Assembly: GCA_030695565.1 (NCBI GenBank)
Contig: JAUYRZ010000026.1
Location: forward strand, 1 to 56,721
Direction of reading: 5' to 3'
Length of the DNA: 56,721 nt
Source of the DNA: Archangium sp.
GTDB taxonomy: Bacteria > Myxococcota > Myxococcia > Myxococcales > Myxococcaceae
This document shows, in pieces, positions 2,378 through 56,720 of the stretch. Numbering within the stretch: position 1 is the first letter of the stretch; the number at the start of each line of letters is the position of its first letter. The translations under genes and the position numbers were made by a program. The notes beneath the pieces are model-generated. The model saw nothing but the letters and a program-made list of their open reading frames with translations. It searched no databases and was not told the DNA's origin.

Positions 2378-2418
2378 GACCCTATCTCCCTGTCCCCGCG
2401 GGGGAGAGGGTCGGGAGA
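2378..2418. repeat. Interspersed palindromic element, copy A
   Basis: The left arm CGACCCTATCTCCC and right arm GGGGAGAGGGTCG enclose a GC-rich loop. This is one of eight related elements in the window sharing the core CCCTCTCCC/GGGAGAGGG. It lies between the stop of the CAP lipoprotein gene and the start of the 1500-2342 gene. Confidence 0.75.
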
Positions 2419-9159: not shown

Positions 9160-9166
9160 GCTTCTT

Positions 9167-9196
9167 TCACTCCTTCAGGGAGAACCTGACCACCGA
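9167..9196 (-). repeat. Retron inverted repeat a2, containing the RT ribosome-binding site
   Basis: The 3' boundary of the msr-msd RNA. It ends 7 bases before the RT GTG start. The AAGGAG ribosome-binding site for the RT is inside the repeat, so a1:a2 pairing would cover it. Confidence 0.88.
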
Positions 9197-9380: not shown

Positions 9381-9410
9381 TCGGTGGTCAGGTCCTCCCT
9401 GCAGGCGTGA
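9381..9410 (-). repeat. Retron inverted repeat a1
   Basis: The 5' boundary of the msr-msd RNA, starting 6 bases after the WHSWIM stop codon. It pairs with a2; the longest uninterrupted match is ACCTGACCACCGA. Confidence 0.9.
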
Positions 9411-9416
9411 AAATCA

Positions 9417-11113: not shown

Positions 11114-11148
11114 CCCCTCTCCCCTCGGGAGAGGGTCAGGGTGAGGGC
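11114..11148. repeat. Interspersed palindromic element, copy B (inside retron operon)
   Basis: A perfect 9-bp palindrome, CCCTCTCCC (11115-11123) with GGGAGAGGG (11127-11135), followed by the family tail TCAGGGTGAGGGCC. It lies in the 49-base gap between the ARM and WHSWIM genes. Confidence 0.85.
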
Positions 11149-32718: not shown

Positions 32719-33960
32719 ATGCGACTCCGAGCCCTGGTGATCTTCCTCCCGTTGGTGGCGTGCCAGACGTACGACTTCGAGCGGGTGGTGCCGCTGCTCG
32801 TCGCGCAGACGGACGACACGAGTGTGATCGCCAGCAAGCGGCTCAAGCCCAACGTGATGCTGCTGGTCGACAAGTCGGGCTCGATGAAGGAGGCCATCGA
32901 CGACACGGACTTCGCGAGGTTCTGTACCCCGGAGTGTGGCGCGAGCGGGAAGGCCGACTGCGACCCGCGTTGCCCCACGCGCATGAGCGACCTGCGCCTC
33001 GCGATGTCGACCTTCCTGGCCAATTCAGGGACGGTGGCCCGGCTGGGTGCGACGACTTTTCCGGCGGCTGAAGGCTGCTCCGTGCCGACGAACATCAACG
33101 TGCAGCTGCCGCCTCCGACCGAGACCGACGATGGGGCAGAGGCGGCGCTGGCGGCGTCGGCGAGCGAGATCAACCGGCTGATTACGGCGGTGCCTCCAGG
33201 GGGAGGAACGCCGACGGGCCGCTCGCTGGCCTTTCTGGGCACCTATGGAGGGCTCGGAGTGGGAGCGCCCGATGACTTTCGCCAGGACTACGTGCTGCTG
33301 CTGACCGACGGGTTGCCCAACTGCAACGACGCGAACCCGAACGCGGTGTGCGGCTGCGGCAATACCTGTTCGGTGGCGCAAACCACGACCTGCGGTTGCA
33401 CCTCGGCGAGTTGCACGAACCTCGCGAACTGCTCCATTGGATGTCTCGACCAGGCCGGCGCGGTGGAGAACGTGAAGGCGCTCCGCCAGAAGGGCATCAG
33501 GACCATCGTGGTGGGTTTCGGATCCTTCTTGACGCAGGGTGCCGGCCCCCAGGTGCTCAACGCCATGGCGCGTGAAGGCGGGGTTCAGCGGCAGTGTCCC
33601 GGCGGTACCGACCTCGAATGCGGCGGCACGGTGGGGAGCTGCGACACCAGCACCAAGCAGTGCTCCACCGCCTTCTACCAGGCGACCAACGCCGTGGAGC
33701 TGGCGGCGACGCTGCGCAAGATTCTCGAAATCATCGTGCCCCCCAACGCGTGCGAGTTCGTTTTGAAGCAGCGGCCCTCCGACGAACGATACGTGTCGGT
33801 GCTCGTCGACGACCAGAACCTCACACAGGGCCCGGAGACGTACCTCTACGATTTTTCCTCGAACGCGGTCACTTTTCAGGGGGCGATGTGCGCCCGGATC
33901 ACGGCGTCCACCCCGCAGCGAACCGTGAAGGTGGAATTCAGGATCGTCGAGCGCTTCTAA
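32719..33960 (+). CDS. CglB-type adventurous gliding motility lipoprotein (VWA domain), copy 1
   Basis: 413 residues from ATG 32719. Lipoprotein signal MRLRALVIFLPLVAC with lipobox Cys15. The sequence CQTYDFERVVPLLVAQT is the start I associate with CglB of Myxococcus. A von Willebrand A domain follows with an intact MIDAS D-x-S-x-S (D51-K-S-G-S55), a Thr in PPGGGTPTGRSLAFLG, and Asp in LLLTDGLPNC. Many Cys pairs suggest disulfide bonds. CglB is an outer-membrane adhesin of the Agl-Glt gliding complex that couples the motor to the substrate. The second copy follows after 30 bases. Confidence 0.85.
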   Translation: MRLRALVIFLPLVACQTYDFERVVPLLVAQTDDTSVIASKRLKPNVMLLVDKSGSMKEAIDDTDFARFCTPECGASGKADCDPRCPTRMSDLRLAMSTFLANSGTVARLGATTFPAAEGCSVPTNINVQLPPPTETDDGAEAALAASASEINRLITAVPPGGGTPTGRSLAFLGTYGGLGVGAPDDFRQDYVLLLTDGLPNCNDANPNAVCGCGNTCSVAQTTTCGCTSASCTNLANCSIGCLDQAGAVENVKALRQKGIRTIVVGFGSFLTQGAGPQVLNAMAREGGVQRQCPGGTDLECGGTVGSCDTSTKQCSTAFYQATNAVELAATLRKILEIIVPPNACEFVLKQRPSDERYVSVLVDDQNLTQGPETYLYDFSSNAVTFQGAMCARITASTPQRTVKVEFRIVERF

Positions 33961-33990: not shown

Positions 33991-35223
33991 ATGATGCGTT
34001 CCGTCGCGCTCTTGTCCGTGCTGACCCTTGCCGGTTCCTGCCAGACCTACGACTTCGAGCGGGTCATTCCCCTCGCCGTCGCGCAGACCACCGACAAGAC
34101 CATCGTCGCCAGCAAGCGGCTCAAGCCCAACGTGATGCTGCTGGTCGACAACTCGGGCTCGATGTTGCTGCCGACCGATTCGTCAGACCCCGACTGCGGC
34201 TCGTGTGGAAACGCGGGCAATCTGTGCCCCGCGACCTGCCCCACCCGCATCACCGAGCTGAAGAGCGCGATGGCGACGTTCCTCCAGACCTCGGGCACCA
34301 TCGCGCGGCTGGGCGCGACGGTTTATCCGATCGACCAAACCTGCGGCACCCCCGGCAACATCGACGTGTTCCTTCCTGCAAAAGCCGTCACCGATGACGG
34401 GACGGACTCCGCGCTCACCACGAATGCGCAGTTGGTCAATGCGCGCATTCAAGCGCTCAGCCCCGGCGGCGGCACGCCCACGGGCAACTCGCTCGACTTC
34501 CTCGGCACCTACGGTGATTTGAACGACAGCGCCGACTTCCGCGACGACTTCGTGCTGCTGCTGACCGACGGTCTGCCGAACTGCAATGGGGCCAACCCGA
34601 ACGCCATCTGCCCTTCCAACTGCATGAACATGACCTGCTCGGCCCCGGCGATCGCGGCGTGCAGCTGTACCACCTCGACCTGCGTCCCGGCCACGCTGTG
34701 TGCCAACGGCTGTCTCGATCAGGCTGGCGCCGTCGAAGCCGTCAAGCGTCTGCGCCAGAAGGGCGTTCGCACCATCGTCGTCGGCTTCGGTGCGGATCTC
34801 GCCTCAGGCGCAGGGCCCGTCGTCCTCAACGCGATGGCCCGTGAAGGTGGCTTCGCCCGCGAGTGCCCGAACAGCACCAACGCCGAGTGCGGCAGCGGTG
34901 GAAGCTGCAACATGGCCACGAAGCAGTGCTCGACCGCGTTCTTCCAGGCGGCCAACGGCACCGAGCTCGCCGCAGCGCTCCGGAAGATCAGCGAGTCGTT
35001 CCAGGGTGACCCGTGCGAGTTCACCCTCTCCGCTCGCCCGTCTGACCCGCGCTACCTGTCGGTGGTGATCAATGGCACCAGCGTCGCGGCCAGCAGCACC
35101 ACGTACTCGTACGACCCGAACTCGAACAAGGTCACCTTCCTCGGGCCGCTTTGCACGCAGCTGAATACGTCGACCACCCAGAACCCGGTCAGCGTCGAGT
35201 TCCGGATCGTCGAGCGGTTCTAA
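33991..35223 (+). CDS. cglB: CglB-type adventurous gliding motility lipoprotein (VWA domain), copy 2
   Basis: 410 residues from ATG 33991. Signal MMRSVALLSVLTLAGSC with lipobox Cys17 and the same CQTYDFERVIPLAVAQTTDK start. MIDAS D53-N-S-G-S57 is intact, followed by PGGGTPTGNSLDFLGTYGDL and LLLTDGLPNCNGANPN. Closely related to the gene before it along its whole length, including the C-terminus (VEFRIVERF in both), so the pair arose by tandem duplication. Which copy is the true functional CglB cannot be decided here; this one keeps the 'LVDNSGSM' form. Confidence 0.86.
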   Translation: MMRSVALLSVLTLAGSCQTYDFERVIPLAVAQTTDKTIVASKRLKPNVMLLVDNSGSMLLPTDSSDPDCGSCGNAGNLCPATCPTRITELKSAMATFLQTSGTIARLGATVYPIDQTCGTPGNIDVFLPAKAVTDDGTDSALTTNAQLVNARIQALSPGGGTPTGNSLDFLGTYGDLNDSADFRDDFVLLLTDGLPNCNGANPNAICPSNCMNMTCSAPAIAACSCTTSTCVPATLCANGCLDQAGAVEAVKRLRQKGVRTIVVGFGADLASGAGPVVLNAMAREGGFARECPNSTNAECGSGGSCNMATKQCSTAFFQAANGTELAAALRKISESFQGDPCEFTLSARPSDPRYLSVVINGTSVAASSTTYSYDPNSNKVTFLGPLCTQLNTSTTQNPVSVEFRIVERF

Positions 35224-35228
35224 GGTTC

Positions 35229-35262
35229 GGCCCTCACCCTGCCCCTCTCCCGAAGGAGAGGG
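35229..35262. repeat. Interspersed palindromic element, copy D
   Basis: GGCCCTCACCCTGCCCCTCTCC then GAA and GGAGAGGG. The stem CCCTCTCC (35243-35250) pairs with GGAGAGGG (35255-35262). Lies between the convergent ends of cglB copy 2 and the DsrE-like gene, where it can act as a terminator-like hairpin. Confidence 0.8.
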
Positions 35263-38804: not shown

Positions 38805-38845
38805 CCCCTCACCCCGACCCTCTCCCCGCTCGCGCAGGGAGAGGG
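38805..38845. repeat. Interspersed palindromic element, copy E
   Basis: Full-length form: CCCCTCACCCCGACCCTCTCC... with 9-bp arms CCCTCTCCC (38818-38826) and GGGAGAGGG (38837-38845). It lies in the 283-base gap between the convergent ends of the matrixin and the lipoprotein at 38854; nothing else was recognised in that gap. Confidence 0.85.
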
Positions 38846-41704: not shown

Positions 41705-41712
41705 AGTCTTTT

Positions 41713-41761: not shown

Positions 41762-44374
41762 CTACAGAATTTCTGCGGCGTCGTTCTGCTGGCGCTTCAG
41801 ATCCGACTTCATGCGCTCATCGATCAGCACCGAGACGTGCTCGAGCACCTGCGGATGGCTGAGGATCAGGCTGTCGAAGTCGGTCTTGGGCAGCCTGAGC
41901 AACGAGGTGTGCCGAATCGCGCGCACGGTGGCCGACGCTGGAGTGCGCATCAGCAGCGACATCTCTCCGAAGACCTGGCCTTCTTTGAGCGTGGCGATGC
42001 GGTTGCCCTTCGCCTCGATGGCCACCTCGCCCGAGAGCACCACGTAGAGCCCGTCGCTGGTGGCGCCTTCTTTCACCAGCACGTCGCCGCGGTTCACGTC
42101 GCGGGCGCGGAACTTCTGCACCAGGTCGCGCCGATCGTTGCGGTTGAACGGCGCGAAGATCGCCGCCTGGTTCATCAGGTTCGAGAGCATGCGCTGCCGG
42201 CAGAACTTCTTGAGCGCGGTGGAGACCACCGGGTAGCTGCTCGAGAGCTCTTTCAAGATCTCCGCGGAGATCACCAGCACCTGGGTGTCTTCGGCGGCGG
42301 CCTCGACCGACGCACTGCGCGGGGCCTCTGAGAGCAGCGCCATCTCGCCGAAGAAGCTGCCTTCTTCGAGGGTGGCGAGCTCCTTGCGCTCGTTGCCGTC
42401 GGTGCGGAACACGCGAACCTGGCCACCGCAGATCACGTAGAAGGCGTCGGCCTTGTCGCCCTGCTCGAAGACGAGCTGGCCTTCTTCGAAGCGCTGCAGC
42501 GGGCACTTCTCGAACAACGCGATGAACGCGTCTTCGGGCAGATCGGAGAAGAGCGGGATCTTCGGGAGACCACCCTGCTCTGCGCGGGGATCTTCCGGGG
42601 CCTCCATCGCCTCTTCGACGGCAGGAGCCGCGCCGGTGACGCTGGTGGCCGCCGCTTCCACGGCGTGGAGCAACGAATCGCTCTCGTCGAGATCGAGCTC
42701 GGTGAAGCTGGGCATCACGCGCGGGGCCGGCGCCACCGCTGCGGGCGCGTCGGGATCGAACTGCATGAACGCCTGCAGGCTGCGTTCGAGATCGGTCGAA
42801 GGTGCAGCCGGTGCCGTGAGCGGAGCGCTGCTGGCCGCGCCCGGCCGCACGCCAGCTTCTTCACGGGTGGTGGCCGGCGTGAAGGTGGGCGGCAACCAGA
42901 TGCGGCTCGAAGAAGGTGACGACGACGGCACACCCGGCGGAGGTCCGTCTGCGCGGCGCGGCTTGAGGCCCGGAGGTTGCGCTTCGGAGGCCGCGAGGGG
43001 TCTGATCGACGGAGGTGCCGACGCGGCGTCACCCACGGAAGGCGGCAAGGCGCTCGAACGCCGCGAAGGCGCCTCGGGCTCCGGCGCCACCGCCTCGATG
43101 ATCATCGCCGGAGGAAGCGGCGAAGGATCTTCGATGATCACCGCGGGCGGGAGCCTGGCAGCCAGCGGCGCGTCGAGCGGCTCGGGGTCGAGCGACTCGA
43201 TGATCGCCGACTGACCGCCCTCGCCCCAACCCTCTCCCCCTCGGAGAGAGGGAGTCGGTGGAGCGATTCTGGTTTCGATGATCGTCGCCTGAGGCTTCGC
43301 AGCCAACGGCGCATCGAGCGGTTCGGGGTCGAGCGACTCGATGATCACCGCGGGCGGCAGCTCCGGCGGTGGCGCCTCGGCTTCGACCGTCAGCTCGAAC
43401 ACCGGCACCGAAGGTTTCGGGTCCGGGATGGCCTCGGTGAGATCGTAGACCGCCGAAGTGCGCGAAGGAGCGGCAGGCGCCTGGACGCTCAGCTCATCGA
43501 CGGCGTCGGCGGGCGGCGCGGGAGGCACGCCCTCCAGCTCGAAGCTCTGCACGGGCGAAGGCGGCGGAAGCTCGAAGGTGATCGCCGGAGCGAGCGGCGG
43601 GGCCGTCTGCAGCTCGGGCGGCAGCTGATCGGAGTCCAGCAGCGGCTGCCCCTCGATGGGGATCTCCACCTCGCCGCTCACCGACTGACCGCCCGTCATG
43701 TCGATGTCGATCGACGTCTCGGTCAACGCCTTCGGGCCGCTCTCGGCCGCTTCTTCCACTTCGATCTCGAGCGCCCCGGCGCGAGGCCCCGTGTGCGCGC
43801 TCATGCCGCCCACCGAGCTCGGCCCATCGGCCATGGGGATCTCGTACTCGGGCAGCTCGAGCGCGTCGGCCCGGTTCATCGGCGACGGCGCTTCGACCTT
43901 CGCGGGCTGATAGCCGGGCTTCGCCTTGATGATCGGCGCGTCGAGATCGATCGCCGCCTTGTTGTTGCTGAAGCTCGAGGTGACGGGCGCGGAGACGTTG
44001 CGCGTGACCTCCATCTCGACGGGCGCTGCCGCCGCGCCCATGGGCTTTCGCTGCCCACCCGACTTCTGGGCGTAGAGCTCAGCGAGCATCTTCTGCACGC
44101 CCTTGTGGGCGGGGTCGATCTCCAGCACCAGCTTGCTGGCGGCGATCGCGCGCGGCAGGAAGCCGTCTTTCGCGTAGCCCTCGGCGGCCATCGAGTAGGC
44201 CTGAATCGCCTTGTCCTTCTTGCCGGCCTTCGACCAGGCATCACCACAGCGCAGGCGGGCCTGGTGGTCCTTCTTGTCGAGGGTGCAGAACTCTTCGTAG
44301 GTCTCGGCGGCCTTGGCGAAGCGGCCCTTGGTGAAGAAAGCGGAGGCTTTGTCCTTGAGGGCGCGGGCCTCCAT
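41762..44374 (-). CDS. TPR protein with two C-terminal cyclic-nucleotide-binding-like domains
   Basis: 870 residues from ATG 44374, overlapping the upstream stop by one base. Residues about 1-115 are TPR-like helices (KASAFFTKGRFAKAAETYEE; PRAIAASKLVLEIDPAHKGV). Residues 120-600 are a Pro/Ala-rich low-complexity region with repeated 'IIESLDPEPLDAPLA' units. Two CNB folds follow: about 600-700, with a normal phosphate-binding cassette FGEMALLSEAPRSASV, and about 730-835, with FGEMSLLMRTPASATV, which lacks the ligand-binding Arg. One translated palindromic repeat (43217-43255) sits in the linker. Likely a scaffold or second-messenger sensor; the output is unknown. Last gene of the scp operon. 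Confidence 0.82.
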   Translation of the reverse strand: MEARALKDKASAFFTKGRFAKAAETYEEFCTLDKKDHQARLRCGDAWSKAGKKDKAIQAYSMAAEGYAKDGFLPRAIAASKLVLEIDPAHKGVQKMLAELYAQKSGGQRKPMGAAAAPVEMEVTRNVSAPVTSSFSNNKAAIDLDAPIIKAKPGYQPAKVEAPSPMNRADALELPEYEIPMADGPSSVGGMSAHTGPRAGALEIEVEEAAESGPKALTETSIDIDMTGGQSVSGEVEIPIEGQPLLDSDQLPPELQTAPPLAPAITFELPPPSPVQSFELEGVPPAPPADAVDELSVQAPAAPSRTSAVYDLTEAIPDPKPSVPVFELTVEAEAPPPELPPAVIIESLDPEPLDAPLAAKPQATIIETRIAPPTPSLRGGEGWGEGGQSAIIESLDPEPLDAPLAARLPPAVIIEDPSPLPPAMIIEAVAPEPEAPSRRSSALPPSVGDAASAPPSIRPLAASEAQPPGLKPRRADGPPPGVPSSSPSSSRIWLPPTFTPATTREEAGVRPGAASSAPLTAPAAPSTDLERSLQAFMQFDPDAPAAVAPAPRVMPSFTELDLDESDSLLHAVEAAATSVTGAAPAVEEAMEAPEDPRAEQGGLPKIPLFSDLPEDAFIALFEKCPLQRFEEGQLVFEQGDKADAFYVICGGQVRVFRTDGNERKELATLEEGSFFGEMALLSEAPRSASVEAAAEDTQVLVISAEILKELSSSYPVVSTALKKFCRQRMLSNLMNQAAIFAPFNRNDRRDLVQKFRARDVNRGDVLVKEGATSDGLYVVLSGEVAIEAKGNRIATLKEGQVFGEMSLLMRTPASATVRAIRHTSLLRLPKTDFDSLILSHPQVLEHVSVLIDERMKSDLKRQQNDAAEIL
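43217..43255. repeat. Interspersed palindromic element, copy G, translated inside a CDS
   Basis: CGCCCTCGCCCCAACCCTCT with inverted partner GGAGAGAGGG (43243-43252). Read in frame on the minus strand it encodes about residues 372-387 of the TPR/CNB protein (TPSLRGGEGWGEGG). The protein on both sides repeats the unit AIIESLDPEPLDAPLAA. Confidence 0.85.
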
Positions 44375-46476: not shown

Positions 46477-48501
46477 TTACCACGAGCCTCGGGGCTTCCT
46501 CGGAGAACTCCTGCCGCCCCCGGGGCTCTTCCGGCCACCCTTGAATCCAGCACCGGGCTTGCCTTTGAAGGAGCTGCCGGGCTTCTTGAAGCCGCCCTTC
46601 TTGAAGCCGCCGGGCTTGGCGCCGGGGCCGGTGCGACGGGGGCCGCTGGCGCGTTCACCGACGCGGGCCGCCGTTTCGCCGAAGCCTCGGGCCCCGTCGC
46701 TGCGGGGACCACCGGGTCCACCGAAACGCGAGCGGGGGGCGTCGTCACGTTTGCCGCCGCGGCCGAAGGCGCCTTCGATGCGCGCTCCGGTGCGAGCGAC
46801 CGCCGCCGTCGCGCCTGAAGATGCACCGCCGTACGCGCGCTCGCCGGGGAACGGCTTGGAGAGCTCACGGCCCGGGGCCGCGACGCGCGGCTCCTTGCGA
46901 TCACGGCCCGTGGAACGTTCTTCGTCACGACCACCGCGGCGTGCGGGACGCTCGTCGCCGGGGAAACGGTTTTTGCCGCCGTCACGGGAGCCGAAGCGGC
47001 CGCCCTTGCCGCCACCGAAGTCACTCTTGCCGCCGAACTCGCGCTTGGCGCCGAACTCACGCTTGGCGCCGAACTTGCCGCCCCGGTCATCGCTCTTGCC
47101 GCCGAATTCACGCTTCGCGCCGAACTCACGCTTCGCGCCGAACTTTCCGCCCCGGTCGTCGCTCTTGCCGCCGAACTCGCGCTTCGCACCGAACTCGCGC
47201 TTGCCGCCCCGGTCGTCGCTCTTGCCGCCGAACTCGCGCTTCGCACCGAACTCGCGCTTGCCGCCACGGTCGTCGCTCTTGCCGCCGCACTCGCGCTTCG
47301 CACCGAACTCGCGCTTGCCGCCACGGTCGTCGCTCTTGCCGCCGAACTCGCGCTTCGCACCGAACTCGCGCTTTCCGGCGCGCTCATCGCTCTTGCCACC
47401 GCGATCGTCTCGCGGGACCGAGCTGCGCTTCACGCCGTCACGATCTCCACGGGGAGCGCGGTCTTCAGCGAACTCCCGCTTGCCGCCTCGCTTCTCGCCG
47501 TCGCGATCACCGCGAGGCGCCCTGCCCTCCTCACGAGCGCTCGGCCGACCAGCAAAAGGCTTCCTCGGCTCGGACTTCGTCTCGCGAGGAGCGTCCTGCT
47601 CGTCTCCGGCGCCATCGTCCATGGACAGCGGCTCTTCCTGCTCTGATTCCGAGGCGCGCTCGGGGCGCTCCTCACTCCTGGTGCGCTTGCCTTCGGGGCG
47701 CGTGTCTTCTTCAGGCTCGAAGCCCGGGGCTGCGTGACCATGGCGGCGCGCAGGCAGGGTGAGGCGCGGTTCAGGCTGCGCATCACCTTCAGCGGCGGCC
47801 TTCACGCGGCGGATCTCGTCGTGGCTCAGCGCGCGCAGTTCTCCAGGACGAAGGCCATGCACGGGCAGACCGGCGTGAGCAGGGCGATACAGGCGCACGA
47901 CCGGGTGGCCGATCGCCGCACACAACCGCTTGACCAGGTGCTGCCGGCCTTCGGTCACGACGATCTTCACCCAGGTGTTGCGCTCGGCCTTCTCGAAGAT
48001 CTGCGCCTGAACGGCGTGGGCCATTCCGTCTTCGAGGCGCACGCCATCGACCAGCTTCTGCAGCGACTGATCGTCGGGCACACCCTTCACCTTCGCGAGG
48101 TACACGCGCGGCACCTCGTGGCTGGGGTGCATCAGCTTGTTGGCGAGATCACCGTCGTCGGTGAGCAGCAGCGCGCCTTCAGCGTCGTAGTCGAGACGGC
48201 CGACGGGGAAGACGCGGCTTCCCGCATCCTTCGCGTAGTCGCCCACGGTGGGCCGGCCTTCGGGGTCGGACAACGTGGTGACCACTCCGGGCGGTTTGTA
48301 GAAGAGGAAGTACTTCCGCTCGGGGTTGACGGCGACCAGCTTGCCGTCGAGCAAGACGAGATCTTTGGTGGCGTCGACTTGCGTGCCGAGCACGGTGACG
48401 ACCTTGCCGTTCAGCTTGACGCGGCCTTCGACGATCATGTCCTCAGCGTGACGACGTGAAGCAACTCCAGCGCGGGAAAGAAATTTTTGCAGGCGTTCCA
48501 T
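46477..48501 (-). CDS. rluB: RluB/RsuA-type pseudouridine synthase with long repetitive basic tail
   Basis: 674 residues from ATG 48501. The first 235 residues are a complete RsuA-family enzyme: S4 domain (MERLQKFLSRAGVASRRHAE), YKPPGVVTTLSDPEGRPTV, catalytic Asp104 in VGRLDYDAEGALLLT, and EGRQHLVKRLCAAIGHPV. From about 240 on is an unusual 430-residue tail rich in Arg, Gly, Lys and Asp. Residues about 367-494 are tandem repeats of a 19-residue unit (KREFGAKREFGGKSDDRGG, with some 23-residue forms). RGG/RG-rich tails bind RNA in other proteins. Isomerises uridine in 23S rRNA (family role). Lies 7 bases after scpB. Confidence 0.9.
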   Translation of the reverse strand: MERLQKFLSRAGVASRRHAEDMIVEGRVKLNGKVVTVLGTQVDATKDLVLLDGKLVAVNPERKYFLFYKPPGVVTTLSDPEGRPTVGDYAKDAGSRVFPVGRLDYDAEGALLLTDDGDLANKLMHPSHEVPRVYLAKVKGVPDDQSLQKLVDGVRLEDGMAHAVQAQIFEKAERNTWVKIVVTEGRQHLVKRLCAAIGHPVVRLYRPAHAGLPVHGLRPGELRALSHDEIRRVKAAAEGDAQPEPRLTLPARRHGHAAPGFEPEEDTRPEGKRTRSEERPERASESEQEEPLSMDDGAGDEQDAPRETKSEPRKPFAGRPSAREEGRAPRGDRDGEKRGGKREFAEDRAPRGDRDGVKRSSVPRDDRGGKSDERAGKREFGAKREFGGKSDDRGGKREFGAKRECGGKSDDRGGKREFGAKREFGGKSDDRGGKREFGAKREFGGKSDDRGGKFGAKREFGAKREFGGKSDDRGGKFGAKREFGAKREFGGKSDFGGGKGGRFGSRDGGKNRFPGDERPARRGGRDEERSTGRDRKEPRVAAPGRELSKPFPGERAYGGASSGATAAVARTGARIEGAFGRGGKRDDAPRSRFGGPGGPRSDGARGFGETAARVGERASGPRRTGPGAKPGGFKKGGFKKPGSSFKGKPGAGFKGGRKSPGGGRSSPRKPRGSW
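47018..47400 (-). repeat. Coding tandem repeat, 57-base unit (some 69-base), in the RluB tail
   Basis: About six imperfect copies encode KREFGAKREFGGKSDDRGG variants. One copy carries a Cys in place of Phe (AKRECGG). Copies differ at third positions, so the expansion is not entirely recent. The repeat is in frame and contains no stop on the minus strand. Confidence 0.9.
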
Positions 48502-56493: not shown

Positions 56494-56720
56494 CCTACTC
56501 TGTTCGTTTGCGGAAGAAGTCTCGAGTGACGAGGGCGACTTCTTGTACTTGTTCGGCCCTCACCCCGACCCTCTCCCGAAAGGCAGGGTGAGCGCATCTT
56601 AAACCGCTGAAGTTCGATCACTTTTTGAAACTCGATCGACTCCGCGCTTGCCGAATGATCGTCTTCGAGGATGCCCGCCTCGAGGAAGGTGAAGCCGGAA
56701 GCAGTCCGTAGAGTCTTCGA
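56472..56720 (-). CDS. Possible C-terminal end of a gene cut by the window edge
   Basis: An open minus-strand frame enters from the right edge and ends at TGA 56472-56474. The first 43 residues look protein-like (LRTASGFTFLEAGILEDDHS, ASAESIEFQKVIELQRF) with moderate third-position GC. It then reads through the palindromic repeat H (KMRSPCLSGEGRGEGR) into an Arg-rich tail that overlaps the TPR gene start. No family recognised; it may be a chance frame. Confidence 0.25.
   Translation of the reverse strand, partial: SKTLRTASGFTFLEAGILEDDHSASAESIEFQKVIELQRFKMRSPCLSGEGRGEGRTSTRSRPRHSRLLPQTNRVGCRRCPG
56555..56592. repeat. Interspersed palindromic element, copy H
   Basis: GGCCCTCACCCCGACCCTCT then CCCGAAAGGCAGGGTGAG. 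The left half matches the family consensus exactly; the right arm is degenerate (GGCAGGG). Located upstream of the TPR/HEPN-like gene. Confidence 0.75.

Follow-up and report, generated by a model that had tools for sequence, protein, structure and literature searches.

The host gene and its repeat-derived block

The window, that is, the whole 56,721-nt stretch of DNA that was analysed, is one contig (C90) of an 8.5 Mb Archangium genome in 134 contigs (G000). It carries a gene for a protein with an N-terminal TPR region, a long Pro/Ala/Glu-rich linker and two C-terminal cyclic-nucleotide-binding domains (TPR/CNB protein). The features of this gene are as follows.

41762-44374, minus strand: host gene, 870 aa; a single open reading frame through the block, with orthologs
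44168-44353, minus strand: TPR region, aa 8-69 (Pfam)
42239-42496, minus strand: best-scoring cNMP-binding domain stretch, aa 627-712 (Pfam)
43214-43255, minus strand: REP-derived coding block TPSLRGGEGWGEGG, 14 codons, aa 374-387 (DNA and translation; 0/9 orthologs have it)
43218-43238, plus strand: C-rich 21-nt repeat core CCCTCGCCCCAACCCTCTCCC (core search; family alignment)
43230-43252, no strand assigned: palindromic stem and loop CCCTCTCCCCCTCGGAGAGAGGG (stem search; RNA fold)

Pfam searches place PF00027 in two stretches of the protein (E 6.9e-45) and TPR_16 at E 3.9e-6. The named relatives of the gene come from Archangium and Myxococcales metagenome-assembled genomes (MAGs). Modelling with AlphaFold2 leaves aa 171-526 continuously below pLDDT 50, with the first helix or strand after the TPR region not before aa 528. 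This supports a disordered linker but does not prove it, as the model was built on a nine-sequence alignment and has a mean pLDDT of 49.7. The palindromic repeat at 43217-43255 (copy G) had been described in the first-pass annotation as lying in frame within this linker, which is borne out, the block being placed here at 43214-43255. It had also been described as an intergenic-type repeat captured without breaking the gene, and the frame is indeed open from the TPR region through both cNMP-binding domains. The capture reading is therefore well supported. The block would be translated as TPSLRGGEGWGEGG, and its opposite strand reads CCCTCGCCCCAACCCTCTCCCCCTCGGAGAGAGGGAG.

Nine orthologs cover the linker: eight full-length sequences (L056, L057, L058, L059, L060, L061, L062 and L064) and L042, from genome G005. 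Repeats of L056 and L057 (L039, L040, L044), sequences broken inside the linker by contig ends (L041, L045 and L063, from G004) and one matching only from aa 632 onward (L065) were left out of the count. The GEGxGEG block is present in 0/9 of these linkers, so that the predicted absence of a 13-16 residue block was found, and conservation in distant orthologs lacking the repeat family, which had been named as the observation that would speak against capture, did not arise. The domains align well among orthologs and the linker poorly, being repetitive and quick to evolve. In the sister genome, the nearest relative, the DNA alignment ends at window position 43057 and restarts at 43349, with none over 43058-43348; the linker varies too much for any other species to provide an empty site exact to the base. 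No clear TPR/CNB ortholog was found in G002. The linker in G004 (L063/L045, L041) is a long AAERA/AAEKA repeat, within which the assembly breaks.

A REP-like repeat family

The repeat was annotated as a family member, and this is upheld by two observations. The core CCCTCRCCCNNNCCCTCTCCC, at ≤2 mismatches, occurs five times in the window, whereas 100 shuffles give a mean of 0.01, and the DNA of copy G is identical at 35/37 nt to an intergenic-type copy in L123. Further copies in the window are listed below, and another degenerate stem lies at 41712.

2388-2410, plus strand: diverged stem copy (repeat list, stem search)
11115-11147, minus strand: repeat copy (core and stem search)
35231-35262, plus strand: repeat copy (core and stem search)
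38806-38845, plus strand: repeat copy, not present in the corresponding interval of the sister genome G003
56557-56577, plus strand: repeat copy with a degenerate right arm (core and stem search)

At the intergenic sites orthologous to 2388 and 11115, the place is taken in G003 (L114) by a palindromic element of another kind or by a composite REP, as if the sites had been reused.

In the 2.447 Mb of the genome that was sampled, 175 copies have the stem and sufficient flanking sequence for classification. This is ~72 per Mb, so that a whole genome would hold roughly 600 by extrapolation. A genome-wide pattern count (327 + 306 versus a control of 261 + 247) was set aside in favour of the sampled sequence and random positions, since the reversed pattern that served as control itself matches family members when 2 mismatches are allowed. 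The family thus has the general character of REPs, being a short imperfect palindrome in high copy that is mainly extragenic and near gene 3' ends. Copies outside genes (n=166) favour convergent and unidirectional spacers, with 70 convergent, 68 unidirectional, 25 divergent and 3 unassigned, compared with 58, 154, 102 and 48, respectively, among 362 noncoding control positions. Some close opposite-strand pairs occur among the copies listed (e.g. C16:6729/6811 and C31:25191/25281).

The terminal tag of the GTAG/CGTC REP superfamily is not enriched. GTAG is about as rare in the flanks of the copies (10/177) as in a random control (6/177), and CGTC is found in 15/177 versus 34/177. Several hundred REP-like copies coexist in this genome with zero matches to the Y1 transposase model PF01797, and one of six genus genomes has a match, near a contig start; this absence is not decisive because it reflects a single family model. 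The 45-nt consensus matches 167 plasmid records at 440 places, mainly in Sinorhizobium, Azospirillum and Rhizobium, with 86-93% identity among the 20 matches listed.

Copies within other genes

The TPR/CNB capture is not a lone case, as eight further in-gene copies were found in the sampled part of the genome. Altogether, nine of the 175 copies (about 35-42 nt long) lie within eight long genes, all in frame. The in-gene rule is a longer-ORF rule, which is passed by 8/175 copies (9 once the other copy in the ADA-NUDIX open reading frame is counted) in comparison with 850/1500 random positions (57%). Eight copies pass only a looser rule. One of them, C27:20091, was accepted since it shares an open reading frame with another copy and the orthologous site in G004 is without it; the other seven were left out, and the in-gene copies could therefore be up to 16/175. 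Matches with 3 mismatches and no stem (9/29 in genes) were dropped as mostly chance matches. The host proteins, which are unrelated to one another, include the following in addition to the TPR/CNB protein.

C114:147596: PabA-PabB fusion, DPLSLRQGGEGLGEG, between the GATase and chorismate-binding domains
C114:110911: EpmA-like LysRS paralog, LPLPSGEGRGEG (Pfam tRNA-synt_2)
C30:62577: PD-(D/E)XK nuclease protein (AddB-like)
C41:4713: Lhr-type helicase, FPLPSGEGQGES
C21:21045: spermidine-synthase-like (SpeE-like) membrane protein, PPSPRGGEGRGEG
C23:63820: TonB receptor, APHPNPLPASQGEG, before the plug domain
C27:20692, and C27:20091 under the looser rule: adenosine deaminase and NUDIX-like protein (ADA-NUDIX)

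The TonB and C27:20692 cases sit at the score threshold (0.10). We take the LysRS paralog to be EpmA. Within the searched part of the ADA-NUDIX protein, Pfam detects the deaminase alone, and the NUDIX-like part is a reading of the sequence. This gene (L219, C27:19658-22375, minus strand) carries its two REP copies in two different frames.

Comparison across six genomes reveals both occupied and repeat-free sites. At the EpmA site, a REP is present in 3/6 species (G000, G003 and G001), with three different loops (TCG, TGCGAAGCG and CCGCGG types), and is lacking in G004, G002 and G005. The EpmA-type solved structure 3g1z has a 15-residue gap at the REP site, and the alignment gap with structure 3a5z is a few residues off it; both PDB entries are titled putative lysyl-tRNA synthetase. 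The PabAB linker carries a repeat in the GEGxGEG frame in G000, G003 and G001 and in the SGERxxVR frame in G004 and G002, and G005 is without it. The Lhr genes of G000 and G003 carry the complete element and those of G001 and G002 partial arms, while G004 and G005 have none; the G003 element is a composite with an extra stretch that is also found at an intergenic site. The SpeE-like gene has a REP in G000 (GEGxGEG) and, in another frame, in G001, but not in G003, G004 or the more distant G002 sequence. ADA-NUDIX was found in 3/6 genomes, with a REP at both sites in G000 and at neither in G004. The G003 ortholog (L221/L224, contig C2) has long in-frame inserts at both, namely a longer unrelated insert at site 1 and, at site 2, one in which REP-like arms flank ~100 nt of other sequence. 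The PD-(D/E)XK gene had no match in the genomes of the five relatives.

The different frames in PabAB and the SpeE-like gene, together with the different loop subtypes in EpmA and Lhr, raise the speculation that certain loops and inter-domain linkers in this clade are hot spots of capture, at which species would take up the element independently, or replace one REP by another, without a resident RAYT. This proposal is tentative. If true, it would imply a continuing supply of Gly/Glu-rich linker peptide, and linkers reused in different frames are a more interesting lead than the single capture.

Origin of the block and alternative explanations

It is very probable that a REP-like palindrome inserted in frame into the TPR/CNB linker, where it is tolerated as a neutral spacer, and that such insertion is recurrent in the clade. 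The short, high-copy element would have entered the disordered TPR/cNMP linker by an unspecified route, probably after tandem duplication of the linker. The family is almost stop-free in five of the six frames (open in 145-177 of 177 copies; the sixth is open in 54). Its landing would have lengthened the gene by 14 codons net and in a frame yielding a hydrophilic Gly/Glu-rich peptide, so that the gene stayed open and the insertion was probably tolerated. Neutral padding is the most likely effect of the block. Other genes of the clade have also taken up this element in frame, and more than once, at permissive loops and at linkers between domains.

Selection on the peptide itself, whether for spacer length, for a Gly/Glu-rich contact or for a translation-slowing mRNA hairpin, is an unlikely alternative to neutral padding. 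The GEGxGEG frame is used by 6/9 in-gene copies, and the simulated chance that any one frame reaches this number is about 0.012, although the count is small (n=9), the test is post hoc and filtering against less tolerable frames can give the same bias. The peptide in this frame is hydrophilic, with a mean hydropathy of -1.34; two frames of the C-rich strand are similarly so (-1.78 and -1.28), and hydropathy alone therefore fails to explain the bias. The intact palindrome kept at one EpmA site in three species would be consistent with selection, but the host proteins are unrelated, sites are empty in some relatives and the frames in PabAB and the SpeE-like gene differ among species. The RNA stem of the TPR/CNB copy is stable, yet no more so than shuffles (z -0.37), and the hairpin idea is not supported.

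The first-pass annotation had also noted a duplicated protein unit on both sides of the repeat, and the insertion could have caused the duplication in one target-site or repair-associated event. The linker contains the following units.

43286-43357, minus strand: duplicate unit 1, PPAVIIESLDPEPLDAPLAAKPQA, aa 340-363 (repeat list and translation)
43256-43285, minus strand: short segment TIIETRIAPP of unit 1, aa 364-373, with the REP directly after it
43151-43213, minus strand: duplicate unit 2, QSAIIESLDPEPLDAPLAARL, aa 388-408
43115-43150, minus strand: REP-free short segment of unit 2, PPAVIIEDPSPL, aa 409-420

The shared 16-residue unit IIESLDPEPLDAPLAA is present on each side, as had been claimed, but abuts the block on neither. 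The N-side copy (aa 344-359, preceded by AV) ends 14 residues ahead of the block and the C-side copy (aa 391-406, preceded by SA) starts 3 residues past it, and their DNA differs at 4/48 bases, all synonymous. IIE motifs are spaced 21, 26, 22 and 12 residues apart, a long-short-long-short order whose first short unit has 14 residues too many, exactly the length of the REP block. The duplicated stretch runs on beyond the position of the REP and takes in a further IIE segment that is REP-free, and PPAVIIEDPSPL is the internal equivalent of an empty site. When each 14-codon stretch of unit 1 was omitted in turn and the remainder aligned with unit 2, top scores of 98.5 were obtained for stretches starting at aa 372, 375 and 376, and 97.0 for that starting at aa 374, all of which coincide with the block; starts at 369 and 373 give 97.0 as well, and this comparison therefore does not fix the block edges exactly. 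Moreover, the REP-free ortholog in G001 (L057) has its own series of five LDAPL/PDAPL units.

A single event thus appears distinctly improbable, even though both units flank the repeat, and any link between insertion and duplication looks weak. The IIE spacing, the omission comparison, the synonymous changes and the L057 series suggest that the linker is probably duplication-prone in any case and that the array was already in place when the REP inserted into one of its units. Duplication followed by insertion is the order to which these data point, and the opposite order, with insertion first, may also apply.

An assembly artefact at a high-copy repeat is very unlikely. The named relatives are MAGs and the genome itself is in 134 contigs, but the element is only ~40 nt, short beside the gene around it, a single syntenic gene with a continuous frame accounts for both flanks, and the frame is kept in all eight copy-bearing genes. 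Chance slippage in a repetitive, quickly evolving GC-rich linker can be virtually dismissed, given the near-identical copy elsewhere in the genome, an expectation of 0.01 cores per window and orthologous linkers of similar make-up that lack a match, apart from one 3-mismatch hit at another position in L064.

Comparison with known systems

In-frame palindromic repeats are already known, and the TPR/CNB capture belongs to a known kind of event; the new member is a REP-like family that lacks the GTAG/CGTC tag and for which no Y1 transposase was detected. The available part of PMC3733652 (2013) describes REPs inside reading frames in several species, many of them in DNA repair genes and with recB of two Xanthomonas species hit at nearly the same position, and its authors suggest that intragenic REPs are tolerated in linkers and loops. 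Those GTAG/CGTC REPs resemble the present family in being 20-40 nt palindromes, mainly intergenic near gene 3' ends, with few in frame; in contrast, the family here has no enriched tag and one linker can carry it in different frames in different species. The excerpts of PMC2229807 review in-frame RPEs and other MITEs. Rickettsia RPEs (Ogata et al. 2000/2002, as cited in the parts of PMC2229807 and PMC3733652 available) lie in frame in many unrelated genes, with some proteins still active. In-frame insertion into genes for unrelated proteins is likewise found here, in eight genes, whereas RPEs differ in length, at 105-146 bp as opposed to ~40 nt, and belong to a different phylum. Enterobacterial in-frame MITE/RU elements, to the extent covered in the available text of PMC2229807 and PMC2759123, are also small non-autonomous repeats that add peptide to genes, but are longer, at 103-168 bp, and mostly bounded by terminal inverted repeats. 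Plasmids of Azospirillum, Sinorhizobium and Rhizobium carry REP-like palindromes that match the 45-nt consensus, a likeness in sequence, and these belong, unlike this family, to Alphaproteobacteria. Literature searches for myxobacterial intragenic palindromes and for the motif letters found nothing on point, which for the former does not imply absence from print.

As documented by repeat-free orthologous sites, a REP-like family outside Rickettsia would add peptide sequence both to conserved enzymes and to linkers in a clade of myxobacteria. EpmA, PabA-PabB, Lhr and the ADA-NUDIX protein offer testable cases of tolerated short DNA insertions that shape loops, and bear on whether the harmlessness of its peptide lets one frame persist more often.

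Other repeats are present in the window. A 57-nt tandem repeat at 46948-47427, with 19-aa units and nine overlapping register copies, lies inside the reading frame at 46477-48501 (minus strand). Adjacent paralogous reading frames at 32719-33960 and 33991-35223 share DNA repeats that are 75-86% identical, and a 32-nt inverted repeat (9165-9196 and 9381-9412, separated by 184 nt) is 91% complementary.
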